Source: Paramacrobiotus metropolitanus
Taxonomy: Eukaryota > Tardigrada > Eutardigrada > Parachela > Macrobiotidae
Length of the DNA: 64,000 nt
Reading direction: 5' to 3'
NCBI RefSeq assembly: GCF_019649055.1
Contig: NW_026570231.1
Span: 1,054,001 to 1,118,000 of the forward strand
The notes under the pieces are model-generated. The model did not search any database. It worked only from the letters and a program-made list of their open reading frames with translations, and was not told the origin of the DNA. Positions 565 to 26,898 of this stretch are shown here, piece by piece; position 1 is the first letter of the stretch, and every line of letters starts with the position of its first letter. A program made the position numbers and the translations under genes.

Positions 565-3500
565 ATGGATGTAAGCCCCACTGAGAGTGCAGTGGAGGAC
601 CGTAACGCTTCTCCTTCAAAACATCCAGCTCTGCACGGTACGGACTATTGACATTATAGCGCTAACATTGATGGTTTTTTCATTTTGTATTATGGTTTCC
701 AGCTCTGAGGAACCTGAGTAATTGTTTGCCGTATATGCTGACGCTGAACTTGCTTTTGATTTTCAGATACGATTGCAGCGAAGCTCGAGAACCACAAACT
801 CAACGGTGTTGAAAGTGGCACCACAGGTAAGATTATAGCCAGTTTAAACCTTGAACAGTTGAACTGTAGATTACGCTTTGGTTTGTGGGCTATGAACTAG
901 AAATGTTAAGCAAAACATTATTTTGAAGAATTAAATTTTAGATTCTGAGCACGAAAATACGAAGCCAGCCAGCCAGTCCGTTGTCGAGGAGAAAAAGCTG
1001 CCGATACAGATCGTGAAACCCGAGCCAAGTCTAACCATGTCAACAGCGAGAACTTCGGATGACTCCAAAATGCAGAATGGAACGGGATCGTATGGAAAGA
1101 GCGAGCAGGTCCCCTCAAAGGGAAAGTATGTCAAGCGCTTGGAAAATACGAAATACATCAAGGAGACCACCGTCACGGAGCAGTATTACGATGATGGAGT
1201 GCTGCGTTTTTCGCATCCGCCCGTAAGTTTGTGTGCGAAATATTCTAGCATTCTGTGAAATTTTTTTAAGTGTAGTTATGGATTGTAGGACATTCAGCGC
1301 GTGGAGACGTCCCCACCCAATTTTTTCGTTAACATCACCGAATGCACGGATGAAGCGTTCCGGGCGGGTGAGATGCGCGCCAAGAAACGTTCTGCTGGGC
1401 GAAGCACCGCAACTCCTTCTGTGGATAAGGAAGCGGAGCCAGAAAAATTTCACGATTCTGGTATGACTGCGGCTTAATTATCCTTTGCAAGATGGAATTG
1501 CCATGTATTCTGGTTTCATTTTCTACCTCGTAGATACCAACGATGGTGAGATCGTGAAGCGCAAGCGTCCCAGCAGGGCGACGACTCTGCTGAGTGAAGA
1601 CGAGGAGGATGAAAAGGTTGAAAAGCTTACCGAGAAAAGACGGAAATCCAGCGAGCCAGTAGAGGAGAAATATACGAAAGGTCCGTAGTTTCATGCAACT
1701 CCTGAGTTGTGCTTCGAAATTTATAGTTCAAGTTTCTTCCAATAATTCAGTTTGTTGCATTGTTATTTATAGGCACTTACGTATTGGCTAAATATAATGA
1801 CAACAATTATTATCCGGCCCAGATTATCGTGAAGGACGCTCAGCCAAGGTGTGAAACCCACTGCAGTTCCATACTATCTGTTGCCAGAAATTTTTTCTAA
1901 TACCGATTTATAATTTCATTCGCAGTCGATGGCGCGTTAAATTTACGGATTCGAAAGAAGAAGATCAAATTCACGAGACCGATTTGTTGAAACCGGGTGT
2001 TTGGCTGACTGTAAACCGTGCTATTCTCATCAAAGCTGGAAACGGTCTTGAAGGGGGAGAATATCAGGGCGCGACGATCACACAACTGATTAAAGAAGAG
2101 GGTAAAGCTCCCCGATACATTGTGAAAATCCAGGACAGCAAGGAAACCAAAACGTAAGAAATTCTTTAAACATTTACTGCGTATCGTTTTGGTAGCAGCT
2201 TGGCATTAATAATATAATGTAAATGGTATCGAAGTGTGTACGCTACTCTGTTCTCATTAGCTGTGTAGTGGTGTGCGTTATTGAGTTCTCATATTTGCAA
2301 TATGCGGTTTTTTCAGAGTTAATTTGGCTGAAGTGGCAATTGAAGCGGATGAAGTGCTTCGAGAAAAATTTGGTAATGGAACTGGCACTGGTAAGCATTT
2401 GAAGAGGATCGTTTCTTCCGATTGCGTTACCGTAATATGCTGACAAATTTTGACGCTGTGACTGTTTTTTCTTATGTTCATAATGCTTTTGTAGATAAAA
2501 ATGCAGTATCTGCGGCGGAATTCGATGAAGGTAACTGATAAAAAAGTCCCGAAGCATTTTGTATAGAGAAAGCCAGAAAGAACGTCACAGGATAATTCGT
2601 TACTTTATCGGATCTACCCTAATGATGTGATTATTAAATTTGCCATCCGCTTCTTGGTTTTAGGGACGGTTGTCTTTGGGCAATGGAGTGATGGATGTTA
2701 TTACCCTGGAAAGATCACGTCTTTTAATAGCAAGAACAAACAATATGACGTCGAATTTTTGGATAACGAAACAGCAACCTTGTCTGCTGATCAACTTGTC
2801 CTGGCTCAAGATATGGTTAAAGCGGATCATTCCGTTCAAGTCAAAATTAAGACTGCGTACGAGAAGGGACAAATTGTTTCCGTAACTGGTACCGGAGATA
2901 CTACACAGGCTATGGTGCGATTCAGTGCTACCAAACAAGAAGAGTAAGTACTGCATCAGCAAAATACCCCATGATTAGCTTTGAATTACGGTATCGTTTT
3001 GACTTTGTGGGACAGTACCTCATGTCTTTCGTAAATGCTTCATGCCTTTTTCTGATTTTCGCTCTTGGAAATTTGAGTAATTCTTAATTTTTGCAGTGTT
3101 CACATTTCCGAGCTTGTTTTTGATAAAAGCGAGGTCAAAAAGGTGCAGAAAGCTAAGGTCTCCAAGAAGGATACTGACACCAGCTCCAACGATACGTCTA
3201 CCCCCCAACGGTCTAGACAGTCTACGCGCATCAGTAGTACCACTTCCCCGCCCAAACCGAAGCCAGAAAAACTTGCTGCGTCCAAACCGGAAAAAGCTAC
3301 CGCCACACCGAAGGCAAAACCGGAACCCAAATCGGCTTCAAAAGCGAAACCAGCCTCTGCTAAAAAGTCAAAAGCGGTAGAAGAAATAAAAATCGAGGAC
3401 GACGACGAAGAAGATGAAGATGATCAGTCTAGGAAGTCCATTGAGAGCGATAAAGGCCAAACGTATACGGTTGGGAAAACCACATTCAAGCATAGTAAGT

Positions 3501-5723
3501 ACAATACAAATGAGTACGCTTGGTTTCTCGCACCCATTTCATTGCTAAATACAGATTTATAAGGTTACAAATCATGGTAAACGGCATTAAACTGACATTT
3601 CACATTGCAGAAGAGCAAGTGTTCGGAAAATGGGAAGACGGACGCTGGTATGCTGCATGGGTAACGGGAGTTCGTCAGTCGTAAGTACTTGTTTTCAGAA
3701 AGATGATAAGTAAGACACTCACTTTGAACTTTGAAGTAGTTGTGATAAAAAACTGTTTTGAGCAGAAAACTGGAAGTTTCTTGGTGTGAAAACCAACAGC
3801 GGAACCATTTGGTAATGGAGGATATTATTCGCGCTGCCGATATCCTTGAGGAAGGACTTCGTGTAAATGTGATCGTGGAGGGGAAGAATTATTACGATGA
3901 GGTTGTGTTTGAGAAGTGGGTGGATGATGGACCACATCTTGTGAAAAGCAAAAAGAAACAAGTGATCGAGTACGTGTAACTTACACTGTTTTTTAAATGG
4001 TGATGGTGATGTTTATTGCCCTGCGACTGACAGGAAGAAGTTTGAGGAAATGATGATCCAGAATGATGAAGTTGGACGCTGGAGGAAGAAGCGAGCCCAG
4101 AAAACTCCTACTACTTCTAAAGAAGAGTCGTCGACGGAGAAAACTGCAACGCCCAAATCCTCATCAAAGGCGACTCCATCGGCCAAACAGACGAGTCCGA
4201 GGGTTTCTCAGGATAAATCAACAAAAAGTGAGTTATCTGTTGTGAGACCATTTATTTTTAGCACCAACTTGATTGATTAACTTTCTTACTTTTGATTAGA
4301 ACGTGCGCGATCGACCTCTTCCGAAGACGAGATAAAATCGGCAAAAAGTTCAAAGAAGCCTGGTAAATACCCCTCCAACAGTAGTTTGCATTTTGACAAG
4401 TCCGTAAGGTCCATAAGCGTTGAAAAAAGTCCCATGATAAAGAATGTTGAAGGCAATACTGATTACTTTTGCATGAATAGCCGCAAAGGCCTCTTCACCA
4501 CTGGAGGAATCTCCACCACGCGATACGCAAGGACCGCCGTTGTCTCAGTGTTCGTTCATTATAACAAGTGGCGGAGAAAAGGATCCGTCGTTCGATCGTG
4601 ACTATATTGTTTCGAAAGTTACGGAGTTGGGAGGGAATGTTCTTAACGCGTTTGACGATCTAGTGAACGTATGTGACTGTTAAGTTGACTTTAACCACGT
4701 GGACTATATAATTCAGTGAAAGTCTCACATTTTTAGGTTGCTGGCAAACGTTATTTGATTTCTCCCAGCCCCTGTCGTACCGCCAAATTTCTGCAGTGTT
4801 TGGCCGCTAATTTCCCATGCGTATCCCATAAATGGATTCTGGATATAGCCGATAAGAATAAGTTCGTTGATTGTGGCAAGTATCGACTAAAAACTGGAAA
4901 GTCAAGCACGGATCAAAAACTGATCGATTGGTATGAAGCCTAAGGCAAATGTATACAATACCGAATTACGATTTTTGTTTTCGATTTTAAATCAGTAATG
5001 AATTATGGCTAGAGTAGGTAGTTTTTGCATACTTAATTTTATATTGGCTTAAATGTGTTGTTACACTAGTGGGTAACCACATAAGTATTTTGACTTCTAA
5101 TGCATGTTCCTTGCCGATTACTTTACACGTTTAACATTGTTATAGCATTACATTAGTACTTACAGTACGAGTACGATTAGTAGTATGTGTAGTGTATTCA
5201 GACGTTATTGCATATGTTTGTAACTTTGTACGTACATGGAAAAAACCTTATTTAATAATAATTCGTAGTTAAATCCTACATGTTGCTAAACTTTTAATAG
5301 GACGCCGAGAAAAACATTGTTGGACAATATGCGGATTGCTTTATATGGAGGCGTGTCGTTCCGATCGACGTGGGTTCCTGCGCTTAAACAGGCGAAAGCT
5401 ACACCGACAGTGTTGGAGGATCAGGATACTGATTCAAGTAAGCCCGGGTCATTCATTTTTTCCGAGCTGTTCATTAATATTATGAGCGAAACTATTATTG
5501 GTTTGATAAGACTGATATGGCTGTAATAATGACGCTCTCTGCAGACATGAAGCGGTTCGACGTGGTGATTGTCGAAGATCGCGCTCCCGCAGAATTGATC
5601 AGTGGTTGCAAGGAAGACAGTGTTCCTGTCACAACAGTGGAATGGCTGATTCAGACTCTGATTCACGGAAAGAAAATGGAATTCGCTAGCTGGCCATACC
5701 AGGAGGCCGCCCCTGACGGCTAA
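565..5723 (+). CDS. 53BP1-like DNA damage protein with three tandem-Tudor modules and C-terminal twin BRCT
   Basis: Nineteen exons keep phase: 565-637, 767-826, 942-1222, 1289-1460, 1534-1680, 1773-1848, 1926-2153, 2317-2390, 2495-2530, 2664-2943, 3097-3494, 3611-3680, 3766-3969, 4034-4227, 4300-4362, 4481-4668, 4737-4930, 5301-5437, 5545-5723, giving about 1017 aa. Seen: acidic/basic N-terminus; Tudor-like modules at about residues 245-365 ('TYVLAKYNDNNYYPAQI'), 383-495 ('VVFGQWSDGCYYPGKI') and 609-715 ('QVFGKWEDGRWYAAWV'); Lys/Ser/Pro linkers; BRCT 1 from about 803 ('FIITSGGEKD') and BRCT 2 from about 915, ending 'TVEWLIQTLIHGKK'. Known: 53BP1 reads methylated histone H4 through one tandem Tudor and binds p53 and repair partners through the BRCT pair at double-strand breaks. 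The order Tudor then BRCT supports the call. The threefold Tudor array is unlike vertebrate 53BP1. The start is the first ATG that joins in phase. It lies tail to tail with the gene at 6047-6828. Confidence 0.85.
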
Positions 5724-6046
5724 ATTATCAGAGAAAAGTATCATTGCGTGGGCGATCCGCAGTCCTTCACTTCGCTGAATGTATTTGTTTGATTGTTTGC
5801 GAGTTGGGTGTAATAATATGTACTAGATAAGTAATCGGTCTTGTATAGGTTTAGGCGATTTCATGATTCCTTTCCAGCTTTTTCAATCTCATTCAGGATT
5901 TGAATATCACACGAATTGTTTTTATTCACGCGGGTTATTTTTGCAGTACAACACACAATTTTTTTGTTACAGATTTTTTGATGTTTTGTTTACAGTTGAA
6001 GCCGTGCTGAGAAATTAGATATTCAAACAACAATGCGAACAAGAAC
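5724..6046. other. Short 3' intergenic region between converging genes
   Basis: This holds the 3' ends of two converging genes. TTTATT at 5921-5926 reads AATAAA on the minus strand, about 120 bases past the stop of the minus gene, and is a plausible poly(A) signal. I found no canonical AATAAA for the plus gene. Confidence 0.45.
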
Positions 6047-6828
6047 TTAGAGCTGTTTTTGTGCTTTGGCAGCCTTCACTGCTGCTGATCGCTCGTCGAG
6101 CTCGCGTTGATATTCTTCCTTGATCTCCGCTCGACGCGTTATGAACTTTCTTGCATCACTGAATGATTTTACACTCATTTGCTCTCGTCGGATTTCTGCC
6201 TTTTGTTCTGGCGTGAAATATCCAAATATATCGATTAGTTCTAAAATGTTCAACAGAAATTGTCAATTACTGTAATACTGTTTATGATACCGATAATACT
6301 GCGAAACAAAGCACGACTACAGCTATTAGGCTGAGTATTAGCGGTTAGCCTATTTACTAATTAATTCTACTACTTACGGTTATTAGTCTACATGTACCTG
6401 TACTTCATTAACCTAAATACATACAAGTAACCAGACAAATGAAGACAGTAATTCCTAAACAATTATTTGTTAGCACTGTTCGTGGTAAGGAAAGAAACAT
6501 TACACGATGAAACCGCGCCAACTTTACAAGTCTAATACAATTCAAGCATAGCGCTGCAGCAGTTATCCAAGTACTCCTCACCTGGATGCTTCCAACAATT
6601 TACCGCATCATCCACCACCATTTTAAAAAGAGGGTAAAAGAAAGTACCCACGGAAACAACGACCAGGATCCCAGCAATTGTCCGTTCATCCCGAAGGCGA
6701 AAACGTCGGAACAGCTTCCTTGTCCACGAAACTTTGGGCCTGTTGGAGAGCTTCTCCACCCAGTTCTCCGGGGGATCGAGAGTGGGATCTTTCCGTCTGA
6801 TGTACGGCGAGCGGTATGATGGGTCCAT
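6047..6828 (-). CDS. Small single-pass membrane protein, unidentified
   Basis: Two exons join in phase: 6828-6582 (donor GTGAGG) and 6240-6047 (acceptor TTTTAG), giving about 146 aa. Seen: a basic, Pro-rich N-terminus ('MDPSYRSPYIRRKDPTLDPP'), a basic patch 'RKLFRRFRLRDER', then one hydrophobic span ('TIAGILVVVSVGTFFYPLFK') at about residues 50-72. After that comes a charged, Lys/Glu/Ala-rich helix likely to be a coiled coil and ending 'AAKAQKQL'. The start is the only ATG before the span; upstream in-frame codons are not ATG. The arrangement would suit a small organelle-membrane protein, for example mitochondrial, with a soluble helical tail, but I do not recognise the family. Codon use and splice sites look real. 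Confidence 0.6.
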
Positions 6829-8046
6829 AGTGCGCACGGAACCTTGTAGGCTTGTACCGATAACGGCTTTCAATCGGAATCCGCGAAATTAAGATTCCGA
6901 ACAGCTGCTCAATAACGTATCAAAAATAAAAGGATCATAAAAATGATAAAATTAAGGATAAAATCCGAATCGCAGTCCACTTCACACTCCACTTAGTTCA
7001 CACTTCACCGTTCTCGCTGCGATGAATCCGTCAATCTGCCTGCTTGGAATTTGTGAGGCGTTATTGTTAATTGTCTTTAAGAGTCAAACATTTGACTGGC
7101 AAATAAAAATTATATAAATTCACTACACAAAAATTCAAACTGAAACTAGTCGAGACTCTACGTAGAAGTCTAGATCCCTGGCAGTCTTTCGCCTTTGCCC
7201 AATACCAGGCTACCATTATTTAAGTAGCTGTCGCTCGTAGGTGTGGAATTATGCACAATGGCTTACAAATTGCGATTTGAATCCATTCAAATGATTTTAA
7301 TTTAATACGTACTCACTCGATCATTGATAAAATTAAAAAGTATTAAGAATTTTCATGTACAGTACAGACTCAAAAAAAATAGATGAGCTTATACTTTTTA
7401 GCTACAATGGTATTGGAGATTTCGTTGAAACTTTTTGTGTGCTGCTAGCGTTGGGAATCTACTTTTTGGGAGTTTGGTTGAAATGGAGAGTATTATACTT
7501 AGTACTTGCTGTATCGGTGACCGAATAATGCCGGAGCATTTTTTTCTCTAATAGCCAACAGTGGTAATGGTCTTACTGCACTCGTAGCACCGTGGTGGTG
7601 CTAAAACGTTTTTGATAATAAGGGAAACACCGTTCAAACACGTAACTGTCTTCAATGTCTCATCATTAACAATACACACCCGCACAAAAAAGGTCCACGA
7701 ATCTGTAGAATTCAACACAATAAATAACGAAAAAAACAACAAGTTTAGAAGATTGTCGTAAAACAAGTGCAATTTCACACAGCAAAAGGCAACAGCAGCT
7801 GTTCAAAATTTCTCGTACAAATAGTATTCCAACGCGTAATAACAAATTAACAAGCACTTAACAAGCACTTTCAACACTTACGTTAGGTTGCGGAAATGCC
7901 TACGTTACAGTACTTACTGCGCGCACAGAACATATTAAGTTCAGATAGATTGAAAGCATACTGAAAAGGTAAAATGTTGCGATAATGACAACTGCCCAAA
8001 CAAATAATCATGACCGATCTCCAAACTGGAGATCCTTTTGGCTGCG
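6829..8046. other. Intergenic, AT-rich; no gene seen
   Basis: The region lies between the 5' end of the small membrane-protein gene and the 3' end of ribonucleotide reductase R2. Short open frames on the minus strand at 7548-7857 are low-complexity and have no recognisable motif. The first few hundred bases likely carry the promoter of the minus-strand membrane-protein gene. Confidence 0.4.
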
Positions 8047-9913
8047 TTAAAAGTCGGCGGAAGTTGTGAAATCGAACAAATCGGCACGATTATTCATGAC
8101 ACCGGCCTTCTGGTATTCTCCAACTCGTTTTTCGAAGAAATTTGTTTTTCCCTCCAAGGAGATGTTTTCCATGAAATCAAAAGGATTATCAACGCCGTAA
8201 ACCTGAAATAAATCACCCATTCACGGTCAGCAAGCTCACTTGTGAAGTACAATACAATCAAAAAGCCTGGTGCTGCAACAGGTTCGATAGAACAATCAAA
8301 CAACAACAAATTTTCAGCACCAAATCACTTCATGCTTACTGTATTCGTTGATTCCTGACACTTTTATTATTATCTTTACAAGGCCCTGTCTGTACAAATG
8401 TTCACCTTATCGACGCCCAACTCGATCAGAAGGCGATCCGCTACAAATTCGATATAGCGCTTCATGAGCGTGCAGTTCATTCCAATCAAGTTGCACGGAA
8501 GGGCTTCCGTGAGAAATTCTTGCTCTATCGTTACAGCATCGCATACAATATCTTTGATTCTCTCTTGTGGGGGCTTGTGGATGAGGTGAGAAAACATCAG
8601 GCAGGCGAAGTCACAGTGCAGTCCCTGAAAATAATACCACATTTGCACGGCTACAAGTTTGTGTACGACCGAGTCAGCTTCATGAGTATTACAAATGATC
8701 AACAGTTTTCAGAAGCATTTAATGTCAAACCTGCCGTCATGCCGGTTTCAGTGAATAACGTACTGTAACAACTAATCGTCAAATACTTTATAGTTGCAAT
8801 AATGCAAATACACAGACCTCGTCGCGACTGATTAGTTCGTTGCTAAATGTCAGTCCCGGCATCAAACCACGCTTTTTCAGCCAGAAGATGGATGCAAACG
8901 ATCCAGAGAAGAAAATTCCCTCAACGGCTGCAAAGGCAATTATCCGCTCCCCATATGTCGCGTTCGTATTGCTGATCCAGTTCAGCGCCCAATCGGCTTT
9001 CTTTTTCACACATGGCATTGTTTCGATCGCATTAAACAAGTATTCGCTACAAAAGTAACACATTAAAGAATCCTAGATTACGTAATCTTGCTGTATATTA
9101 TTATTAATCTACAAAAGATTTACAATCTCAACACACAAATACCAAAGCAGTTATTCAAACAATCTAACGAACTGTAATTGTACTAACCGTTCAGCAGGAT
9201 CCTTGATATATGTATCGATCAGTAGGCTGTACATTTCCGAATGGATATTTTCAATAGCTATTTGAAATCCATAAAAGCAGCGAGCTTCTGTAACTTGCAC
9301 TTCTTGGCTGAAACGCTCTACCTGTAAAATAAGAGTGAGATTCGTTATTACTATTTTTTGACAGAATTGGAGACAGAAAATCAAAGGCAAAACTTGCCAG
9401 ATTTTCGTTGACGATGCCGTCGCTAGCGGCGAAGAAGGCAAGCACGTGAGAGATGAAATATCTCTCATCGTCTTTCAGCGACTCCCAGTGTTTGACATCT
9501 TTCGACAAGTCCACTTCTTCGGTTGTCCAGAAGGATGCCACGGCTTTTTTGTACATCTACCGAAATTCAGTAATCAGTATGCATACCAGACAATATTAAA
9601 AATTACGAATCAAATATTTTTCTCCAGCTTAAAGGAAATCAGATTGAAAATACCGAATACTCTAGCATGTTTTCACCTTCCAGATATCATGATATCGAAT
9701 GGGGAAAATAACGAAACGTCCGGGATTTTCCTCCAGAAGCGGTTCACGATCTGTGTTCTCTGTATTTTCGGCTTTTGAGGGCGTGATAGCCTTAAAGGGG
9801 CTGCGAATGGGGTTTTTCTTGGGGCTGCTTAAGTTCATTTCGGCCAGAGGTTTATACAGGGTTTTAGTTGGGGAGTTCTTCGGGGAAGGCCTTGAATAAG
9901 GTTTCGAAGCCAT
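8047..9913 (-). CDS. RRM2: Ribonucleoside-diphosphate reductase small subunit R2
   Basis: Six exons: 9913-9677, 9556-9398, 9321-9188, 9046-8818, 8624-8406, 8202-8047, giving 377 aa, near the usual animal length. R2 houses the di-iron/tyrosyl-radical cofactor that lets R1 reduce ribonucleotides to deoxyribonucleotides in the cytosol for DNA synthesis and repair. Seen: the N-terminal tail is rich in Ser/Pro/Lys; '[13 protein letters not shown]' opens the core; '[18 protein letters not shown]' contains iron ligands Glu and His and the radical Tyr in CFYGFQ; '[20 protein letters not shown]' and 'CDFACLMF' follow. The tail 'FTTSADF' matches the R1-docking heptapeptide. The intron between exons 2 and 3 (9322-9397) begins with GC, not GT. 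Genes for PSF3 and a 53BP1-like protein lie nearby. Confidence 0.97.
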
Positions 9914-11922
9914 GCTGGAACCGGAAACTGAAATACAAAATATGAAACTTCGTGATTGCTATCCGGTATCCCCTATCGCACGCTTTTTGTTAGTAAACTA
10001 CGCCATACATAGTACTTATTAATTTTGTAGGCGTTCGGTTTTCAGCCGTTCTTTACCTAAAGTTTTCAACTACAAGTGCTGTATGCCGCTACAGTTTTGT
10101 ACAATCAATAACACTTCAAAGTATACTGCAAAACTGCAAATATATACTGCAAAACCCATTGCGGTGAATTCGTGTAGCACAGTTTATCTTCTTAAAAACG
10201 CCTCATGCCAACATAAAAACTAAATAATTTACAGCATTCGCAAATTTGCCGAAGCTTTGGTTCATAGCAAAAAAAAATACAAAAGCTATTATTATTAACT
10301 TTCATGTACAGTACTACACTCAAAACTCGTGTTATCAATGTTCATTTCGGCGATTTCGCAATGAATTGTTCGACCATCTACGGTAGACTCTACTTAGAGT
10401 AAGTGCCAAGTTGCCAACCATCAACATGCATATCAGCTTGCCGCCAAAATAGTAGGCGGAATCACCACCGGGATGATGCTAGACCATTCCCGCCTTGTAG
10501 CGGAACAGTCTGGTACGTGCATGCAGATGGCAGACCATAGAATCAAGAATGCTTTATCATTTTGCCGCTCAAAACATTTTAGCGATGATCCTAGCCTTTA
10601 ATTAGTTTAATACCGATATATCGTATCCTTACCGCACGCAGACTGATAGGTTCGAAATCTGGAACTTTTGTTGTTTCACTTACCGTTGACATAGTAGTAG
10701 ACTATTTACTAGTAGTGAGTACTAGTGACTCCGTTTTACAGTAACAGAATCAAAAACGACGCTATTTAGCTTTTAATTTAAAACATTTAATTTAGGGCGG
10801 CAAGACAGTTTTATCTCAATTATCTGTATTTTATAATTGGTATTTGTATTTCATAATATGATAATTGTACTATGATATTAACAGTGTGTGTTTTATAACT
10901 GTATTATTACTATTAACTAAAGAGTACTTCTGTATTTGTAATTATACCATCGGTGCAAATCATCATGAGAGCCACTGACGTAAACAATAACAATCGAGTT
11001 TTGCAGCTTGAATTTTAGTCGTTAAGTTTCAGTCGGTCTACATACCTTGAAAATCCTGGCAAATAAATTGAAAGGGCGACAAAATGCGAAAACAGCAGTT
11101 TATAAGTTCAAGGCGTCAAGCAGTCCCGATGTCCCTACAGTCCTGACGAAAGAAAAATTGACTGTTTCTAGTGGGTATCGTAACCACCATAGAGTCAAAC
11201 CTTTCAAGAAAAATTAATGCAAGTTTCGGGTTTCGGGAAAACCTAACCGTTAGATTCGGTTTGAAAATAAATTGTACACCGAGGTGTGCGCGCGGAGCTC
11301 AAAAATTAATGGCAACTCAAACTGCGGCGTTTCACGGTTTCAGTTTGACAAGCGATAAAAGTGCTCGTACGTACCGCGGTACAGAACTTTTGGCGCACAA
11401 TAAAAGAGATGGAAAGCCATTCAGTCCAAATGAATGGTTAGGATTACAATGTAGGCTGCTCGATAAACCATTCGGCCCTGCATCGTGTACATGACGTCAA
11501 AGGTAGTTGAGTGCCTCCTTTTGCTGCCTTGGCTGTTGTTCCTTGTTCCAAACTTCCAGCCTAGCTTTCTGTAGGATCGTTGAAGAACTGCATTTGTTAC
11601 ACTTTCCACTTTCTACCATATTATGGTAGAAATCTGTTGTAGACGGATTAAAAGAAAGCGCTTATAAATTCTATTTTTTAAATAGAAATGACTGTTCTTG
11701 TTGTCAATGGTTAGATATTAAGGGATTTTATATAGTTAAGAACGATCGAGTTTGCGTCCAGAATCACGCGATGAGACCCTTTCCACAACATTCTGCAAAA
11801 GTTTCCGCTGCAGACTGTATAGAATATACCGATTTCTCCAGCTGCCCAGCTTAACAGCCTGGCAAAGTTATTTCCCGCAAGTTTTATTGCTGTTTGACTC
11901 CACGTTTAGTGTCTCGTGAACC
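9914..11922. other. Divergent intergenic region between RRM2 and GINS3; no gene seen
   Basis: This is head-to-head spacing between two S-phase genes, so both promoters should lie here. The DNA is AT-rich with many short TAC/GTA-type words (for example around 10690-10735). An open frame at 11171-11494 on the plus strand has no family resemblance and is probably chance. Confidence 0.4.
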
Positions 11923-15586: not shown

Positions 15587-18438
15587 ATGCCTCCACAAGA
15601 ACGCGGATTTATAAAGCCAGGTACAACCGTAGACGGTCAAATATCTATTCGTCGAACTATTATCAAAATGTTCCCTGTCAGGCTCTAGAGACTAACAACT
15701 GGTCAATTAAAGTATGTAAATTGTTCGAGGCTAAGAACAGGGTAAGATAGTATGGCTGCGTCGTTGATTTGAATGGGTGAATTTGTGGTAAATGCAGCTG
15801 TAATACGTGTTGTCAATGTTGTCCCAGATGATGCTCCTCAGGCCCCGGGATGGCGCGAGGAGCGCTTCGACAATTTCAGTGAATTTTCGGGGGCTGCATT
15901 TGTTTATAATCCATGGCGTCATTACTCGATCGATCAGCAACGACAGCGCTTGCCGATCTTCAAGTTTCGGAATCACATCCTGTATTCTTTGGAGAACTTC
16001 CAGACTACCATTATTGTGGGTGAAACGGGATGTGGAAAAACAACTCAGATTCCACAGTATCTTGTGGAGGCGGGATGGTGTTCCAAAGCAGGAACCAGAG
16101 TGGGCGTAACGCAGCCGCGAAGAGTTGCAGCCATTACGGTATGCATCGTCGGGATGACTAGTTTGAATCAAAAGCTTATGAATTTACTTTTTTTTATTTA
16201 CAAGACTGACTCCATGATGGTGTGTTCGCAGATCTCTCAACGCGTAGCAGAAGAACGCGGTGTTAAGCTTGGTCGCGAAGTAGGATATGTTGTGCGTTTT
16301 GATGATTGCTCCAGCGCGCAGACCAAAATAAAATTCGTTACTGACGGAATTCTTGTCCGCGAAATGATGGCAGATCCCTTGCTGCAACAGTACAGTGTTC
16401 TCATGCTGGATGAAGGTATTGCACAGTACTCCTTTCTTTGCTTAAAGTTTAACTTTGTGATACCTATTTTTTACCGTAGCACGCATTAAACGTTATTATT
16501 AATAGATTAAATCATTAACAGTCGCTTATGTAGTTTTTTTTTGAAAATTGTCAACGGGACTTTTAATAAATCGTTAGTCCACTTCTTTTAGTTCACGAAA
16601 GAAGCATTCAGACCGACATCGCCCTTGGACTGCTAAAGAAAATTCTTAAAAAAAGAGAGAATTTGAGACTGATCATTAGTTCTGCCACATTGGATGCGGA
16701 ATATCTTCGAGACTTTTTTAACATGAAAGACAGTATTAATCCAACATCCACGATTCTGACTATCGAAGGCCGCACATTTCCGGTAGATGTGTTTTATCTT
16801 CAAGATCCAACTCCGAACTACCTGAATGCGTCCGTTGAAACTGTGGTAAAAATCCATCGCAGTGAGCCAATGGGTGATGTTCTGGTATTCCTGACCGGCA
16901 TGGAAGAAGTCGACCAGTGTTGTCGCTTGTTAGACGAGCATGCCGATGCGTTGGAACGGGAGACAGCCACTAAATTAAGCATTCGACCACTGTACGGCGC
17001 TCTTCCTCCTGGCGACCAGCTGAAAGCCTTCGAGTTACCGTTAGCAAAAACACGGAAAGTGGTGGTGGCTACAAATATAGCGGAGACTAGCGTCACCATC
17101 AGCGGCATTGTCTACATCGTTGATTGTGGTTTCGTGAAAATTCGCGCGTTTAATCCTCGAAGTGGAATAGACAGTCTTACCATAGTTCCCACCAGTAAGG
17201 CATCCGCGGAACAGCGCGCCGGGCGTGCAGGGCGTGTGCGCTCGGGTAAAGCATACCGATTGTATAGTGAGGATGCGTACCGAACTCTAGAAAACGCTAG
17301 CGTACCGGAACTGCAGCGGACCAGTATGGCACCGGTTATTTTACAGCTGAAAGCCCTGGGTGTGGATAACATCCTGAGATTTAATTATCCGTCCCAGCCG
17401 CCATCGGAAAATATGATACAGGGTCTGGAGTTGTTACATGGTTTGGGAGCGCTGGATGAGAATGGTACCCTGACAGAGCCACTGGGGATGCGTATGGCTG
17501 AGTTACCGTTGCAGCCCATGTTAGCCAAGATGCTGCTAACTGCGCACCAACATGACTGTGTGGAGGAGGCCTTATCCATCGCCGCCATCCTCCAGGTCGA
17601 ACAAGTATTCATTAAGCCGGGCCGGGGTGAGCTGAAGGTCCACGCTGAACGGTGTCGAAGGAAGTTCTCCGTTTTGGAGGGCGACCATATCACATTGCTG
17701 AATGTATATACTGCTTTTCTCCATTATGGGAAAAGTAGCCAGTGGTGTCGACAGCATTTTCTGCATTATAAGGGATTGTGTCGGGCCGTGGAAATCCGTG
17801 CACAATTGGTTAAATTGCTGTCCCGGTTAAAAGTTCCGGCCAAAAATTCTGCAGGTTGGTTTTGCGATGGGTGTTTTGTATTAGCCCGTGGCAGAGCAAG
17901 AGTAACTATGGTATTTTTGTTTAGAGCAAGTTGCGGGTGCTTTATATGACATTGACAACGTTCGCCGTTGCATTGTATCGGGATTTTTTGCTAACGCCGC
18001 ATATCGACATTACTCCGGATCGTATCGTACGGTACGAGATGATCACGAGCTGCATATTCATCCTGGATCGGTCCTTTATACGGAAAAACCTCCAGACTGG
18101 TAGGCGTTTTCTTCCGAATTTGATTACGTAACAATAAGCTCTTGGTTTTAGCAGTCGCAGTAGAGTTTTTTTTCCTTTTGTGTTCGTTTTGTTCTTTACA
18201 ATTTTTATGTGTGCTTTCAGTGCATTGATTATCCCTATAAAGCTCTGCTAATTAGTGATTGTCATTTGGTTATTTCAGGGTTGTTTACAATGAAGTTCTG
18301 CAGACCAATCAGGAATACATGAGAGATGTGACCGCCATTGAACCGCAGTGGTTATATGAACTTGCACCACATTATTATCAATACGCTACCGAAAGAGAAC
18401 TGCTATCTAAAAAGTTCAAAGAATCGGAGAACGACTGA
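15587..18438 (+). CDS. DHX35: DHX35-like spliceosomal DEAH-box RNA helicase (DEVH variant)
   Basis: Six exons: 15587-15620, 15828-16138, 16232-16415, 16592-17854, 17925-18099, 18279-18438, giving 708 aa (human DHX35 about 703). DEAH helicases hydrolyse NTP to remodel RNA-protein complexes; DHX35 is associated with the catalytic spliceosome in the nucleus. Seen: 'VGETGCGKTTQIPQYL' (Walker A, about residue 76), 'TQPRRVAA', motif II at about 175-178, 'SSATLDAEYLRDFF', 'VFLTGMEEV', 'ATNIAETSVTISGIVY', 'SAEQRAGRAGRVRSGK'. The C-terminal helicase-associated and OB-fold regions end with 'MRDVTAIEPQWLYELAPHYY', closely DHX35-like. Motif II reads DEVH across the exon 3/4 junction where the family has DEAH. 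The first exon codes only 11 residues, and the first ATG that joins in phase was taken as start. Confidence 0.93.
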
Positions 18439-20995
18439 GAGTCTGGATAGTAAAATTCAGTACTATTCATCATTAATTTTGCATCCTGTATATGGTTGTG
18501 TACTGCAGCAGCTCTTTTAGGTAAGTCTGGTGTTGTTTTTTATTATATTTCCTTAGCCGCCAGCGGTCTAAGAAATGCTGTAGTGAAAATCAGGCACGAA
18601 ATTTATTTTGTAATATCGAAAGCTGAGATTACTGGAAAATGTGATAAGTTAATTTTTGCATGGTACTACCCAAATTGAAGGCATTAGTTTGTCTAATGCT
18701 TCCAGTTTGAGAACATTACATTAGAATCTTGAAGTACCAAAAGCAGGCAATTTTAATTCTAAACCGGAATAAGGATTAAACATACGGACGAGGTTCAGTT
18801 CTAATAGGTTACAGAGCGCTGACGGAATTGTTTAAGTACTGTAACTGCTTTATACAGTATCGTTGTCGTTGCTTAGCTTGTGCAGTATACAGTAATTTAA
18901 TATTTTGGACCACGATTAAATTATGACTTCCGCTAGTGACCCTTACTAGCATCTTCCAGTTCCAGTTAGTTTTTAACATGCTTTCGGTTTTGGCGATATT
19001 ACTGATTAATGAATGATACCCGGCTCCGCAGAGGAAATGTTAACCGGACCCGAGTCCATGTACATTATTTGTGCTATGGACTATGGTCATTTATCAGCCG
19101 CATGGCGATATGCATGCGAACTTTATCGTCCCTTTACGTACTGTACATTAATTTGCCAAACCACCACACTGCTGAATATGTTCTCGTACTTGACCTAGAT
19201 TCCTTGATCTGCCCACTGAGTGACCACTCTTCACCACCACTGCTCTGGAAAGTTTGCCTTTGCTCGCGCCAGCCGGCGTGGGTAAACTTTGTTAGACCGA
19301 GAGAAGTTTGACCACGTTTGAACGTGTAGCCCACCGTTTCAAGAAGACCGTATGTGATGTGCACTATGTTCGTTCCGGCTGCATCGCCATCGATTTGTTC
19401 TGAGGATTTCTGACAAATGTTATGCCGTGCAACTACTCAGCAGCGTTAGCAATAAACTGGCCGTTTCCGTGTTTCGGAGAATCCACGATGACGTACGCAC
19501 AAATTAATGGACAAGCTATGCGAAAATCCCAATTTTTACATTTTGTCGGGTAATCGGCGAATCGCCAGCTTTACAGCATGCGGTTCGTTAATTGTTAAGT
19601 AGGTGTAAATAATGACACCGCACACGTGATGTGATGAATTAAGTACCAACATACTGTAATTGGAAGAAAAGTTTCGTAGGAACTAACAAGTAAATAATTG
19701 TTTATGGAAAAATTCCATGTTCCTTGGGTATCATTGTGAAATTATTTATGTATTTTTTTATTGGACGGAAGTTTTTCGGAAAGTTACGAATTAAAAGTGT
19801 TGAACGCAGAAACTGGCAGATCGGTGGATCTGGTAAATAACCTTTGGAACATCGTTTCTCGGGCGATGTTAAATGTGTGTGGCGTGGGCTTGCTTTTTCG
19901 TTAATAGTGGAAGGATATTCATAGCATACACGTGCATGCGTCGATAGTCCCGTTGACCAGTGGCCACATTATCCAGGGCACCAACTGTATTTGACCAGTT
20001 GAAAGCATGGGCTTTACTATCCAACGGTTGTACTTCTTTGTTCAATTTACTACTGTAAACGTTTACGTTCTCCTGCTACACTTCTCTCTTTCCCCTTCAA
20101 ACTGCCTCCAGCAGATTGTTACTGCACGCACTGGTCAGCAGCAGTTCGCTCTCTTGTCCAGGGAGATAACTCGCTATGGTCAGTCGTGCATGCGTATGTA
20201 GGCGCTTGTATACAGCTACAACATGACCGCACTCACCAAACAACCCGGCCACAACGTTAACCGGGGCTGCAGGCCGCACAGTTATCTCGCCATGGCCAAA
20301 TTACAATCAATAACGGACCCTGTAAAGCAGGTGCTGGGTATGCTGCTGCTGCTTGCAGCCGGCCATCACACTTGTAAGCTGCGAAACAGGGGCAGGACTG
20401 AACAACGCTGTGAGTAGCCAGCAGGCATCCAGTCATACGCTGAACCACACAGCAGAAGGGTTTGAATAACAGGTCCAACATCAGCTCACTCAAAAGGCTG
20501 GCTGTCCGTAGAAAGAAGCCGGACATTGGCTGCACGGCTTTTATCGTCAGTACAGTAACTGTTAGTCTCCACAAAATTAGTTCGCCCAAACTGCAGTATT
20601 CAGTCGTCGCTTCGTAGTCTGCGAACTCTTCTTGTACCTGCTCCATATGTTTTGGCATTTCTGGCTGGGTCCACGAGTGCATGTTTTACCGACAATGCTA
20701 ATTTTGTAATAAGTACAGGATGATCTTGTACAAAGTTTAGGCGTATTAATATAAGTAGCTTGTATGTTTAGACAGTAGACACCGTGTCATCTGCTGAACA
20801 CGTACGTTTCTCAACTTCTCGCAAATCCTAGCGTAGTTACATCACCGGTGATTGTTGCACATTCTTGGACACCTGCCAACAGCAGTTCGGTTCTTGTTAA
20901 CGTTGGCTGTTGCAGCCTGCTCCAGTTTTTCCAGTTAGTGTCAGTGGCAACGCAGCTTTGCCGGGTGGTAAATTCGTTTCCGAGCCGGCACGATA
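18439..20995. other. Intergenic; no supported gene
   Basis: Open frames at 19009-19364 and 20007-20682 on both strands lack conserved motifs and clear splice partners. Around 20.0-20.6 kb the DNA is locally rich in CAG/CTG-type words. The last part is likely promoter and 5'UTR of the 53BP1-like gene starting at 20996. Confidence 0.4.
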
Positions 20996-23900
20996 ATGTC
21001 TCGTTCTAAGTCGTCCAGTTCTGCTGCTCCAACGATGGATCCAGGTAATTAACAATAAGTAACGGACTTGTTTGTTTACATCTACAAAAAATGAGACTGC
21101 GCAAAATTATGCGCTGGCGGCATGCCGATTATGTTTTACAATTAGCCATACGTAGTTTAAGGAATATTAATATTGGTTTGATTTTAATAATGTGAGATAG
21201 AGCGGACATTGTACATACTCATATTGTACAAGCCAGTATCCTTACTTACAACAATTCTACCGCCTTCCTAGTTATTGTTTGGGATCGATTATGGGCGGTT
21301 GTGTGTTAAGGTACAGTGTTGTAAATGCACGGAACTTATTCCTGAGTGGGATTTATGATAGATTTTAAATATTTTGGTATGGAAGGGGTTTCTGTTAACA
21401 CCATCTTAAGTCCATATTTATAACAGTTGCACTCTGCAACAGCATGATCAGCATCGTGCTGGATTTCTGCAAAACTTTACTGCGTCCTGTTTGGTAGAAA
21501 TAAAGGATGGGGCCGACAGTTATAGCGCTCACCAACGGACATTATTTACGATAGACGTATAGTGATCCCTGTGCATCTGACAATTGTGAAAGCCTGAAAG
21601 CTTGCTCGCCAGTGGCCATCTGCCGTGGTTCGGCGCAAGTTTGCCTTGTGGTTGCCGGCCACTGGCTGCTGCAGCAGTGATGTTATGAGTGCAAGTCGCT
21701 TTGTTCTGTTGTGGTGAGACGTTTGACTTCGGGTTGATGCCGTACGTTTCAGCGGCACAAGTTGTTACTCTTTCTTTGAAAAGCTATTGCTTTTCTCCAA
21801 AAAAACTTTTGCGTTTACTCCGACGCAAAAACATGTGCTCTTATAATTATAATTCTGGATCTATAATTGTAATTTTAGATATTTCATCGAGTTTACCGGC
21901 TTTTTATTAGTAACAGTAAATAGAATGATACTACAAAAGATAAAACTATAATTTTATATACGAGTAACGATGCAGGTACTTAATACTGATCACACCGGCA
22001 CATGCAGTTCGTACACTCGTTGCGAACTTGCTTTTATATGCTAAAATGGTTTTGATAAATGACGGTTAAAAAATTTTTACTTCAAATGCGGCGTCCATGC
22101 TCGCATTAAACCCAGAGTAGGAAAACCCAGAGAATCTTAATGAAATTTTGTTGTCGTCATTACTGCTTTGTTGAATTATTTATTGCAAAGGTTGAAGAAA
22201 GTAAAAATTTGTGAACCGAAAAAACTATTACAGTGCTAATAGACTTGCATTTAAAATAAAAACTTGCGTGCAATATTATCTTTAAATTACCATGGTACTC
22301 AGGTACCGCTGCTCCAACCGGCCGCGCTCAGTTCTCGATTCCGGATTTACTTCAGTTGTACCGGCAAACACTGTATATGGCTTGCAAAGAGGCGGATTTG
22401 TCAGCAGCCGGCAATCCTTTCGGTGAAGACGGTTTGGCTGCCATTCGATCGGATTTGGACAATTGGAACAATGTGGAATTCGATCCACCTGGCTGTCTGC
22501 GACTATCCAAAAAGTCCGGAGCATGCCAAAAAATTGTGTCTTACTGGAAAAAACTTCTTGGAAGTATTCTTACGGATCGGGTATGTGGCTATACCGTGCG
22601 ACTGAGCCTTGCACAAATACCAGTAGGAGTTTCAAACAACACACGCTAGCGTTTTTTTGTGACTAATTTTTGTTATTAATTTTGATGCGGTTAAAGTACG
22701 TTTTCCCCGTGGTATCTTTTGCTTCTCATAGTCAAAGATCACAACCAGTCTGCAAGGGAAATTATAGTGGTGCTCGTAATTTTACAGGATCCCTCCAGTT
22801 TCGGCAATCACGACCGCGGTGTTATGACAATCTGCAAGCTTTTGCATAAGGATTTTCAAGTGGCCGTTCTGGCTATTACAAAGTGGAATGAAAGGGATTT
22901 TCCGAATATCCCCACCGATCAAGTGAAAGAAAAACTTAGTATGAACCAGCTGACCTTTCTGTGCCGCCGCTACCACAACGATCTGACACTGATCGCTCAT
23001 GCGTTCAAGTCTAGCATCGCTAACAATGATTTCAAATACCTCAATCCACGGTGCGATATGGTCATCACTCATTAGTGCGACAATGAATTATCTGACTTTT
23101 TTAGTAAAAAAAGGTAACTTGTAATGTTTTTTTCAGATCAACGGAAACATATCCAATAGACAATGCGGAATACGAATCCAAAGAAGAGGATAACGCTCAC
23201 GATACTCCACCGAAACAGGAAAAGCGTAAACGTCCTTTCAATGGAGATGATGAGGGAATGGGAGTGGGCGCGAATGATACCTACGATATGTCGCCGAAGC
23301 TGGCGCAGTTGCCTTCGCGTCTTCCCGAAAAAAATTTTCCTACTTTTGCTAACCCTCTCACTGGGAATTCTCTTGCATTTCCCCCCAGTCAGAATCGGAT
23401 ACCGTACGAGCACGTAAGAACATACATTTCAGTCTAAAATACAAATGCAAATTCAAGTCTAAAATGTAAAAAACAAGAACTCAATAAAGGCTGTGTTTTT
23501 TCTGAGCCACCGGCAGTGCGTTTTAGTGAATGCAGCGACCAGCGGGTTGTTTTTTTCTACTCAGGATGCCAGCATTCTCAAATCATTGTTGCCAAAAGCG
23601 GATGGCAATCGAGGTCATGAGGCGCAGTTTTCGGCACCGCTGGATTTGGATCGTCATCCTCAGAAATCTCCCAAATTAAATGGCACTCAGACGGCACAGT
23701 ATGCGAACCAGCAGGCTAGCCAACCTTCTCGTGTGCGCACTGAAGGACGAGAAGATCCCAATGCGGAAATACAGCGTCTACGCAATAAAAATAAGAAATA
23801 TGTCGGCATAATTATGAATTTGGTCGAACAGTTGGTGCAAGTGGGACAAATTCCCTTCGTGGATCTGCGTTCCATTGAGCAGGAAGACCGGGTACGTAGG

Positions 23901-26898
23901 AGATACCAAGAAGTAATACGAAATCAATTTTTTTGAAAAAACTTCAGTCTCATGCCTTATTAAAGCGCTGTTGGTTTTGCCAAGTTCCCAGTAACCTTTC
24001 TGCACCTTTGTTTTCCATGATACAGACCTCACCCTTCAATACTGTTCTAATCTCTAAATAAAATTTGTGCACAAAGGTTTTTTTTGAATTTTTGTAAGTA
24101 ATATCCTTGACATTCGTTTTTTATCCATTTAGGATCAGCAGCAGTCAAACACTATCATCGCTCCGGAACCACCGATCGCCGCGTCCCGCAATCCTGAACA
24201 GTCCGTGCCCCGGCGTAATTCAAGCTCATCGACCACGAGTGTCTATATTAATGGCCACACACAAAAGCGTGATGTGCAGCCATCTCCTGTTAATTACTCG
24301 GATCCACGCCGCAAAGTACCGAAACCGATGCCGCAGGTGACCTTTGACCGCACGACCATGCGCTGGAGCGATTCGGCTTCTGGGCAGGATTCCAACCACG
24401 GAGCCGTGGCTCAGCGGAATGCATATCCCGCTACCGTGATTCGTGTCCCTCCGGTGGTCAACGGTGCGGTTCGCTCTACCCTGTCATCGCTGCTCGAATC
24501 GCCATCCGGTAGCCCGGTCATCGACGCGAAAACCGAGCATCACTCGCAGATGAACGGTCACGGTGTAAAGAGCAAACGAAAGAACAATCCCGTTAAACGC
24601 GAGCTGCCGGGCTATGCGCCGCGATCGGTGGCGTCGCCGGATGCCAGTGGGACATCGGATGATACAGCCTCCGTAGCGTCGACCGATCTGAATAAGAACG
24701 TCCGAGCCAACCTCTTTGTTCCGCCCGTGGAAACAACATACGTGGATAATCGTGGAGGTGCAACACAGGAAGGAACCAAGATGGATCACCGCAACGAGAA
24801 TGGGGCCAGCAAGAAGAAGTGTAATCTGCAGAGCCTCACGGATAGTTTAATGTTTGCGAACAGTGGACTGACGTCGATGGCGGCGGCTGCTACCGTGGAT
24901 GGTAACGATGGCCAGACGACTGCACGTATTGTTCCGGGTTCGGTGGTTTTTGGTCGAGCGCGGGATGGCTGTTTGTATCCCGCAGAAGTGGTGGAAAAAT
25001 TGGAGAACAGGTAAAAATTTGAACAAATTACCCAAGCTAATTTAGGCTTTTCATTTATTCTGAATTATGCGTTTTTCAGCTTTGTGGTTGCTTGGATGCA
25101 TGCAAATTCTTCAGCCAGTTTACGAGCAGAAGACGTCTTCTCTCTGGAAGAGGTTCTTAAACCATACCAAGAAATTCGATACAGAAATGAGGACGAAGTG
25201 CATCGAGCAGTTTTTGTGGACCGTAATCGCAACCATTCTTGCTCTATTCTCAATTTGTTTGGCCATCAAAAGCGGTACGTCATGGTTATAAAGTTTTCAG
25301 CTTGCATCTAAATATTTGCGATTAAACTTACTTGGTACTTACCGCTAGTGGCATGGCAGGTTATAAGTGGCTGTTAAGGAAAGGTTAATATTTGTGACCA
25401 ACAGGTGTCATCTCGCGGATATATTTGTTCCCGATGAGAAATACGAAGATTATGATGATCATGGACAACGAGAATATCTAAACGAAGCTCTGGAGTCACA
25501 TGAAGCTGCTGCTCTGCAGAACTTATCGGCAAATTTGTTTCCGCGCACGGTCACACGAGGTTCTCGCACAGCGTATTTTCGAGGATGCTGTTTCATTCTG
25601 ACGTCGCAGAAGAACAGTTTGTTCAAGGGATACGACGATGATCAGATCATTGGGCTGATCCAGGCGTTGGGTGGCAGTGTAGTGAAAAAGTTCGAAGATC
25701 TTGTTGCGGTAAGTTTAATGAATAAATTGTTGCTCAGGCTGGTGTGTTGTTTTAATTGAATTACAGAATATACCGGAAGTAGAGAAATGAGCAAAGGATT
25801 ATTAAATATATAAAGTCTGGCAACTGCAAGAGCAGAAGCAGAAGCGCTGGCGAAAGTTGCTTATTGCTAACTTGTGTTGTAGCAGGGAGAGGAAAAGTAC
25901 CTGGTCGCACCGTGTACCTGTGGAACTCCCAAGTTTTTCCAATGCCTCGCGGCCAACATTCCCTGCGTATCGTACCAGTGGATCATCGACTGCCACAATG
26001 ACCGGTCCAAGTTGGATATCAGTCCATACATTTTACCGGCAGGAATGGACGGGGAGCAAGTAGTTCTTTGGTTAGTATCTGTAAATTTACAAAAATGCCC
26101 AATTTTCTTGTATGGTTTCTTGTTTGTAATTTTTATAACGCTTTAAGCCGGTGAATTTTGAGCTGTATACTCGTAACTGTTATTACAACTACTTTTCTGG
26201 TTGGTAGTGTATGAGATTTGGAAGCATTTGGTAGAAGACAAACCTGCAGTTTCATCAAGCAGGCTCGCTTGGTTATAGACAGTACTTTTCCAAAAAAGGA
26301 TGAAAAATGCATTAAAACGGGTGGATTTTAGGAATCCACGTACCTTTATGTTTGGCGATCAGCGGATTGGCCTGTATGAGGCCGCATCCAAATTGTGCGA
26401 AACGTGGTTTTTGGCGCTCAAGTCCGGAAATGTGGATGTTCATGTGGTTGACCCGGATAGCGCTGTGAAAGGTTAGTTTTTAGATAGGTTATTTCTATGC
26501 GATATTGTCGCTCCTGTATTGGAACTTCAGACTTAAGTAGAAGAGATGTCGGTAGACTTCTGGACTTTCCAAAGACGTAATCGCGGAGAACGCATTTGTG
26601 CCTTGCGGCCTTGCTGTATGTACTGTAGTACAGTATATGGCACTTCTGTCAGTCTTTGTCTGGTATCGAATATTGCGCGGCGTTTAGATTGCGTTTTTGG
26701 ATTATTTTTAATTTAAAATTTTCAGATCTGCAAAGCGTTGAAGTGCTGGTGGTTGAACGCTCATGTAGCCAAGCACTGCGGGATGCGGCGGCAGGCAGTG
26801 GAGTGCATGTTGTTAATGAAAACTGGTTAAAGAAAAGCCTGGTCCATGGAAAAATGCAGCTATGGAATAATCCTGAATTTGCGCCTGAAATCGAGTAG
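20996..26898 (+). CDS. Second 53BP1-like protein: unknown helical N-domain, coiled coil, one tandem Tudor, twin BRCT
   Basis: Eleven exons keep phase: 20996-21044, 22303-22580, 22788-23050, 23137-23413, 23565-23891, 24133-25010, 25080-25274, 25405-25708, 25886-26070, 26332-26471, 26726-26898, giving about 1022 aa. Seen: a helical, Trp/Cys-bearing N-terminal region (about residues 20-195; 'IPDLLQLYRQTLYMACKEAD', 'MNQLTFLCRRYHNDLTLIAH') that I do not recognise. A likely coiled coil follows at about 360-395 ('EIQRLRNKNKKYVGIIMNLV'), then a long Ser/Pro/Asn-rich linker. A tandem Tudor starts near 676 ('VVFGRARDGCLYPAEVVEKL'). BRCT 1 opens near 830 ('YFRGCCFILTSQKN'), the inter-BRCT segment contains 'YILPAGMDGEQ', and BRCT 2 ends 'NENWLKKSLVHGKMQLWN'. 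The layout and the 'LPAG' linker match 53BP1. Its sequence is very different from the copy at 565-5723, so any duplication is old. Confidence 0.8.

Follow-up and report, generated by a model that had tools for sequence, protein, structure and literature searches.

At least five 53BP1-type genes in the eutardigrade Paramacrobiotus metropolitanus, among them a copy with three Tudor modules and another with a degenerate Tudor

The window analyzed here, 64,000 nucleotides of Paramacrobiotus metropolitanus contig NW_026570231.1, carries two 53BP1-type genes on the same strand, designated A and B (Table 1). The sequence content agrees with a tardigrade: CAHS was found, and the spliced leader SL1 of nematodes, with up to one mismatch allowed, had no match. 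Both are predicted, hand-built models. Gene A runs from an ATG at 565 to a stop codon ending at 5723, with GT-AG boundaries at 18 of 18 introns, and gene B from an ATG at 20996 to a stop codon ending at 26898, with GT-AG boundaries at 10 of 10. An earlier note had described two 53BP1-like genes about 15 kb apart on one strand; the models bear this out, with a spacing of 15.3 kb, products of 1017 and 1022 residues, and matches to BRCT_3 and to 53BP1 structures. The two genes also differ in Tudor number and N terminus, as that note had held, with three modules in A against one in B and an orphan domain in B. Its statement that the exon layouts differ applies to the exon numbers, 19 versus 11, but not to the BRCT pair, where the layout is nearly identical and the introns lie at alignment columns 71/72, 139, and 200.

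Table 1. Features of genes A and B, in positions of the window
Feature	Position	Strand	Description
Gene A, 53BP1 type	565..5723	+	19 exons, 1017 aa, three tandem-Tudor modules and BRCT pair
Gene A Tudor module T1	1773..2390	+	exons 1773-1848, 1926-2153, 2317-2390; matches 53-BP1_Tudor profile
Gene A Tudor module T2	2664..3150	+	exon 2664-2943 and start of next exon; lacks internal phase-2 intron
Gene A Tudor module T3	3611..4095	+	exons 3611-3680, 3766-3969, start of 4034-4227
Gene A BRCT pair, 53BP1 type	4481..5723	+	4 exons, intron phases 0, 2, 1
Gene B, 53BP1 type	20996..26898	+	11 exons, 1022 aa
Gene B orphan N-terminal domain	22303..23050	+	2 exons, no Pfam match
Gene B single degenerate tandem Tudor	24937..25440	+	internal intron of phase 2; cage residues mostly gone
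Gene B BRCT pair, 53BP1 type	25405..26898	+	4 exons, intron phases 0, 2, 1

Above the Pfam cut-off, gene A matched, among other models, BRCT_3 (4.5e-13), Tudor_3 (5e-13), SH3_Hsr9 (5.8e-10), and 53-BP1_Tudor (2.1e-5). Gene B, submitted minus its first 17 residues, matched BRCT_3 (5.2e-10), BRCT_2 (2.4e-8), and BRCT (3.7e-8), while its Tudor reached Tudor_2 only below the cut-off (E = 0.1) and was recognized mainly from the alignment and from an internal phase-2 intron like those of T1 and T3 in gene A. In searches of the PDB, 53BP1 was the best match to gene A (6e-25), the next for its BRCT pair being Crb2 (tabulated as Rhp9) at 0.018, and also to gene B (2.9e-15), followed by Crb2 (9.4e-5) and XRCC1 (0.0045). 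The two BRCT pairs thus do not fall into different families, a point that the earlier note had wanted checked: both are of 53BP1 type, and neither belongs with MDC1 or BRCA1. For T2 and the first exon of the gene B N-terminal domain, AlphaFold run without an alignment yielded poor models (pLDDT 52 and 58, respectively), which were set aside.

The earlier note had reckoned with two copies; the genome holds at least five 53BP1-type genes. Four genome searches agreed on the same five, namely A, B, and three copies on other contigs (C2, C8, and C15), for which hand-built models predict compact Tudor-BRCT proteins of 407 to 452 residues. Every one of the five passed the BRCT_3 cut-off when either the (nearly) whole protein or the BRCT pair served as the query. 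A profile built from the five BRCT pairs found 53BP1 in the PDB at 1.8e-38, followed by Crb2 at ∼1e-13, Brc1 at 1.2e-6, and PTIP at 4.1e-6, with MDC1 and BRCA1 above 0.2; the far better E-value of 53BP1 rules out MDC1, BRCA1, PTIP, and Brc1 as the nearest family. A genome search with the general BRCT profile PF00533 (E ≤ 0.001) gave nine matches, none in the five genes; introns split the BRCT domains of these genes. BRCT_3 also hit C6 (E = 0.016), but a reading of L005, bases 5000 to 8600, in three frames showed no BRCT gene, and the hit was dropped. Further weak BRCT_3 rows lay on C240 (E = 0.56) and at C11:1799933 (E = 0.95), and other weak rows outside the five genes lay at C2:3271314 (E = 1.1), at C1:2738414 (E = 4), and on C188 (E = 1.3).

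All five BRCT pairs are interrupted by three introns of phases 0, 2, and 1 at the same or close places; the second intron of C8 is displaced by one column and the third of C2 by nine, within a gapped stretch, and one C15 intron requires a GC-AG site. From T3 onward, gene A shares eight of eight intron phases with C15 and the last seven with C2. At the column aligned with K1814 of human 53BP1, the lysine of the phosphoserine pocket, each of the five copies has a lysine. The methyl-lysine cage of the human Tudor consists of W1495, Y1502, F1519, D1521, and Y1523. In the alignment, T1 and T2 of gene A each keep four of these five positions, T1 with Y in place of W, and the position of Y1523 is altered in all seven tardigrade Tudor modules. 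The gene B Tudor keeps two, the positions of W1495, D1521, and Y1523 being occupied by A, H, and N. Given these lost residues and the weak Tudor_2 score, we filed gene B as a diverged paralogue and not as a working 53BP1. Identity to human 53BP1 was 31% for gene A, whose branch is the shortest, and 24 to 26% for the other copies; gene A is the most 53BP1-like copy and probably the orthologue.

ATM uses S/T-Q sites of human 53BP1. Residues 1 to 244 of gene A contain one such site, against a mean of 1.2 in shuffled sequences (P = 0.73), so that no enrichment is seen there, and gene B shows no S/T-Q enrichment either. Recruitment of partners in the human style by the gene A N terminus is therefore doubtful. 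We regard the N-terminal S/T-Q cluster as a functional feature of the vertebrate protein and not as a mark of the whole family.

The earlier note had explained A and B by an old local duplication, and we weighed this explanation in the form that both descend from one such 53BP1 duplication and that the other three copies arose later from one of them. The two genes are indeed old paralogues, with BRCT pairs 33% identical, and their shared strand, proximity, and similar BRCT introns speak for such an event. Their sisterhood, however, was not borne out by the BRCT tree, in which B paired weakly with C8 (88/89); forcing an A+B clade cost 3.97 log units and survived the test (p-AU 0.094). An eight-row Tudor tree joined T2 with the gene B Tudor (81/81), but 16-row trees did not; no branch was starred in the BRCT or Tudor trees, and Tudor supports stayed below 95. 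In addition, the T3-type Tudor and linker intron phases of gene A recur more fully in C2 and C15 than in B. On balance we regard the local duplication as rather unlikely, if still a serious contender.

Slightly less probable again, in our judgment, is that gene B has left the break response and is a fusion that puts a 53BP1 C terminus at the service of an unrelated N-terminal domain from a tardigrade family of many copies. That domain has diverged copies at other places in the genome and no match in Pfam, and the Tudor has kept only two of the five cage positions, all of which fits a fusion. Against it stands the good preservation of the BRCT pair, including the phospho-pocket lysine. Furthermore, exon 24133-25010 is a single open frame that joins the middle part of the protein, which resembles a copy on C1, to the start of the Tudor, making a mistaken joining of two separate genes unlikely. 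Nothing spoke for reading the five copies as duplicates made in assembly or as allelic haplotigs, and BRCT identities of 20 to 37% between them, far under the allelic level, refute such a reading.

Taken together, the gene content, homology, intron phases, and residue states of the five genes make it likely that A and B belong to a 53BP1 (Crb2/Rad9/HSR-9) family that expanded to at least five genes in this eutardigrade, in which A is conserved, C2, C8, and C15 are compact, and B is diverged. As the conserved scaffold, gene A would bind chromatin at DNA breaks, with T1 and T2 as predicted readers of methylated histone and the BRCT pair as a predicted binder of phosphorylated H2AX. Its three modules may have arisen by in-frame copying of a Tudor module preceded by phase-1 introns, in a duplication order that we infer, and C2, C8, and C15 would be derived, compact forms, each combining a single T3-type Tudor with the BRCT pair. 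In gene B, where the BRCT pair is kept and the Tudor decayed, binding to phosphorylated H2AX has probably persisted and the methyl mark would no longer be read, while the unrelated N-terminal domain would bring other partners. To this extent the residue loss suggests the division of labor between A and B that the earlier note had proposed.

T3 of gene A also led to a family of BTB-BACK-Tudor genes, for which 150 places were scored out of 321 candidates. The last domain of these proteins is called Tudor on account of its match to T3; Pfam gave no Tudor match in the members tried, and a profile of the BTB-family Tudors with T3 matched Tudor structures weakly (best 0.0078). In the trees, T3 grouped with the Tudors of C2, C8, and C15 and of the BTB-BACK-Tudor family; a grouping of T3 with the BTB-BACK-Tudor rows alone, paralogues left out, was also a compatible branching of the T3 group (p 0.343). 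When T1, T2, and T3 were forced together, the p-AU was 0.335 with six rows (human and B left out), 0.040 with eight rows, and 0.00072 with 16 rows, the last two values speaking against multiplication of the Tudor within the gene.

The BTB-BACK-Tudor proteins are probable ubiquitin-ligase adaptors, likely for Cullin-3. We tentatively propose, at somewhat less than even chances, that the 53BP1 Tudor multiplied within one gene and that T3 then spread to the three compact Tudor-BRCT proteins and, intronless, to BTB-BACK proteins at well over 100 places, likely Cullin-3 adaptors with a recognition domain derived from a reader of DNA breaks. If this is true, the reading of chromatin at breaks and ubiquitin targeting have been combined here in a way for which our searches turned up no precedent. 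Should the members of the family be expressed, they would form a very large group of probable ubiquitin-ligase adaptors with a Tudor-type domain.

Tardigrades are famed for radiation tolerance, and 53BP1, opposed by BRCA1, guides whether breaks go to end joining or to homologous recombination. Five 53BP1-type genes, one with a triple Tudor and one with a decayed Tudor, constitute a natural test of which elements of the scaffold are important. Gene A resembles human 53BP1 in its order of tandem Tudor, linker, and C-terminal BRCT pair. Vertebrates, however, have one 53BP1, and the single human gene has one tandem Tudor, whereas in this genome at least five genes are present, A having three Tudor modules and B a new N-terminal domain. 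Crb2 (Rhp9) of fission yeast likewise combines a Tudor with a BRCT pair; in the searches with the BRCT pairs of A and B and with the five-copy profile it ranked next after 53BP1, with far weaker matches. Among ecdysozoans, HSR-9 is the 53BP1 homologue of Caenorhabditis elegans, according to PMC3648578, and the Pfam model SH3_Hsr9 matches gene A. For another eutardigrade, Richtersius, PMC6652013 mentions seven 53BP1 transcripts as "data not shown," a number that may include isoforms; the same study looked at three eutardigrades and did not recover BRCA1 from them. The BTB-BACK-Tudor family has the BTB and BACK domains in common with the BTB-BACK-PHR proteins (BTBD1/2/3/6), but those end in PHR and the tardigrade proteins in a T3-like domain. 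The two also differ in number: PMC1257465 gives four to seven BTB-BACK-PHR proteins for a metazoan genome, against the 150 scored places (of 321 candidates) here.

We built exon models for two genes of the window (C11:1054001-1118000 of the genome), A and B, and searched them against Pfam; the models and domain matches bore out the coordinates, size and domain order that the earlier note had given for two 53BP1-like genes, the weakest element being the Tudor region of B. In gene A, the domains over the cut-off included BRCT_3, BRCT, BRCT_2, Tudor_3, Tudor_2, SH3_Hsr9 and 53-BP1_Tudor. In gene B, which was searched without its first 17 residues, BRCT_3, BRCT_2 and BRCT exceeded the cut-off and the Tudor reached E = 0.1 at best. 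Exon 1 of B was placed so as to fit the phase of exon 2, and with the help of a similar start, found by eye, in a diverged copy on contig C1 (L006). Between A and B, on the + strand, lies an exon that encodes the helicase domains Helicase_C, HA2_N and HA2_C (window 16570-17949).

The number of copies, given as two by the earlier note, had to be revised. In the genome (169,799,020 bases in 533 contigs), the BRCT_3 model and the protein sequences of the BRCT pairs from A, B and the C15 copy, each used as a query, all led to the same five 53BP1-type genes, the additional three lying on contigs C2, C8 and C15. The count of five is a minimum, because a search that takes the genome one exon at a time may overlook weak matches. 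In the models of the C2, C8 and C15 copies, a short N-terminus precedes a single tandem Tudor and the BRCT pair. The five are not alleles, since their BRCT pairs are 20-37% identical to one another.

Positions and models of the genes and domains, with residues (by eye, from the Tudor alignment) at the positions of the human 53BP1 cage
Feature	Position	Model	Cage residues
Gene A	window 565-5723 (ATG at 565, stop ends 5723)	19 exons, 18 GT-AG introns, 1017 aa	T1 Y,Y,F,D,K; T2 W,Y,F,D,E; T3 W,Y,W,E,Q
Gene B	window 20996-26898 (ATG at 20996, stop ends 26898)	11 exons, 10 GT-AG introns, 1022 aa	A,Y,W,H,N
Gene B N-terminal domain	window 22303-23050		
C2 copy	C2:3.542-3.544 Mb	438 aa	F,Y,W,E,K
C8 copy	C8:2.119-2.122 Mb	452 aa	W,Y,W,E,G
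C15 copy	C15:538-541 kb	407 aa	C,Y,W,E,K
Example BTB-BACK-Tudor locus	L032:1490-4194 (G000:C11:1505400-1510600)		

Searches against PDB placed the BRCT pairs with 53BP1. Gene A matched 53BP1 at 6e-25, the next match for its BRCT pair being Crb2 (table name Rhp9) at 0.018, and gene B matched 53BP1 at 2.9e-15, Crb2 at 9.4e-5 and XRCC1 at 0.0045. A profile of all five pairs scored best against 53BP1 (1.8e-38), followed by Crb2 (about 1e-13), Brc1 (1.2e-6) and PTIP (4.1e-6), with MDC1 and BRCA1 above 0.2. For comparison, the BRCT segment of human 53BP1 retrieved itself first, then Crb2 (3.3e-6), BRCA1 (0.0076) and MDC1 (0.19). A lysine aligned with human K1814, which we take to be the phosphoserine-binding lysine of 53BP1, is present in all five copies.

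In a BRCT tree rooted on human 53BP1, gene A had the shortest branch, and its identity to the human protein was 31%, compared with 24-26% for the other copies; A is therefore best read as the orthologue of 53BP1. The earlier note had proposed that A and B arose by local duplication. The tree joined B with C8 at 88/89 and did not reject a clade of A and B (p-AU 0.094). No branch of the tree was starred. The three BRCT introns have phases 0, 2 and 1 in all five genes and fall at alignment columns 71 (but 72 in B), 139 (but 140 in C8) and 200 (but 191 in C2, where the alignment is gapped). From the exon that begins T3, the last of A's three tandem-Tudor modules (T1 to T3), the phases of A run 1,2,2,1,1,0,2,1, identically in C15 (8/8), and those of C2 equal the last seven of this run; C8 has 2,2,1,0,2,1 and B, from its Tudor onward, 2,2,0,2,1. 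The first BRCT intron of C15 (L004:1526-1461, minus strand of C15) is GC-AG, and all remaining introns of the five models are GT-AG.

Among the modules of A, it is T1 that matches 53-BP1_Tudor, whereas T3 is the one with which the C2, C8 and C15 Tudors grouped in trees of 8 rows (89/97) and 16 rows (80/93). A constraint keeping T1, T2 and T3 together was rejected in the sets of 8 (p 0.040) and 16 rows (p 0.00072) but not in the set of 6, human and B left out (p 0.335). T1 and T3 share the phase run 1,2,2,1,1, so a Tudor module flanked by phase-1 introns could have been copied without a frame shift, a mechanism suggested by the layout. We take the human cage positions to be W1495, Y1502, F1519, D1521 and Y1523, on a reference segment identical to PDB 4x34; by these residues, most of the predicted cage is kept in T1 and T2 and most is lost in B. 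S/T-Q sites were not enriched in A or B.

The N-terminal domain of B is without a Pfam match and has diverged copies elsewhere in the genome (L006 to L011). One, at C1:229 kb, is a degenerate B-like copy without Tudor or BRCT matches, and another lies at C8:1.73 Mb. Two copies on C362 and one on C9 share 90-95% DNA identity over 0.8-2.7 kb, and two of these three adjoin a chromodomain-like stretch recognized by eye.

With T3 as the query, the genome yielded 102 matches at E<=10. Of the 43 that reached E<=0.001, 5 lie in A, C2 and C15 and 38 elsewhere. We fetched 20 of the latter loci (L012-L031), mostly strong ones, and 19 are preceded on the same strand by a BACK-type exon (E<=1e-3). BTB was sought by eye in four loci (L032-L035) and by Pfam in two family loci: one yielded a full model of six exons and 419 aa, in which BTB (1.3e-23) and BACK (5e-12) precede the T3-like domain, and the second gave BTB at 1.2e-17. 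When the last exon of one member was used as query, 150 of 321 candidates were scored, all at E<=2.6e-6 and 136 with a stop-free match; for most of the 150 places, the presence of BTB and BACK is presumed. Many places of the family are on contigs such as C73, C76, C94, C103 and C133. In the 16-row Tudor tree, T3, the three paralogue Tudors and eight family rows formed one side (85/89), with a very short T3 branch (0.13), and we regard the last-exon domain, on sequence grounds, as a homologue of T3. The W1495 and Y1502 positions vary among the family rows (alignment A4); we therefore doubt that this domain binds methyl-lysine and think a varied binding face more probable. The family matches are intronless across a region that has two introns in A, which fits a retrocopied Tudor module that may have been copied in either direction.

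Further observations concern the window and the genome. A 79-base tandem repeat of 3.1 copies (window 55600-55844) adjoins a stretch, 56001-60000, of low G+C (0.30 and 0.37) and strong GC skew (-0.31, -0.26). CAHS had 20 genome matches (e.g., at locus L001), some sharing a contig, as expected for a eutardigrade; the best had 65% identity (E=3e-69) to the tardigrade CAHS protein used as query. The nematode spliced leader SL1 had no match with up to one mismatch allowed.

Beyond homology and residue states, binding and roles can be proposed for the five genes by analogy with the family. Gene A would bind chromatin beside a break with two hands, a Tudor holding methylated histone and the BRCT pair holding phosphorylated H2AX, perhaps with higher avidity from its three Tudor modules. 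The short C2, C8 and C15 forms could sit on the same marks without the long N-terminus of A. With its BRCT pair kept, its Tudor decayed and a new N-terminal domain, B may be a re-targeted partner.

Among the papers examined in our literature search, which reached few subscription papers and no bioRxiv preprints, we found no BTB-BACK-Tudor family and a single statement on tardigrade 53BP1 copy number, that on Richtersius. The family was not described in the checked passages of tardigrade papers holding the term BTB, and 53BP1 was absent from the main text of the tardigrade TRID1 papers examined. A paper on BTB-BACK-PHR proteins counts four to seven per metazoan genome, with the word Tudor absent from its main text (PMC1257465). 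PHR, the usual last domain of those proteins, had seven exon matches in this genome. According to a tardigrade study, BRCA1 was not retrieved from three eutardigrades, nor BRCA2, NBS1 and CtIP from the tardigrades examined (PMC6652013), and the human balance of 53BP1 and BRCA1 therefore cannot be assumed here. The same study credits the eutardigrade Richtersius with seven 53BP1 transcripts (data not shown there) and a heterotardigrade with none (PMC6652013), a difference that fits an expansion of 53BP1 in eutardigrades.
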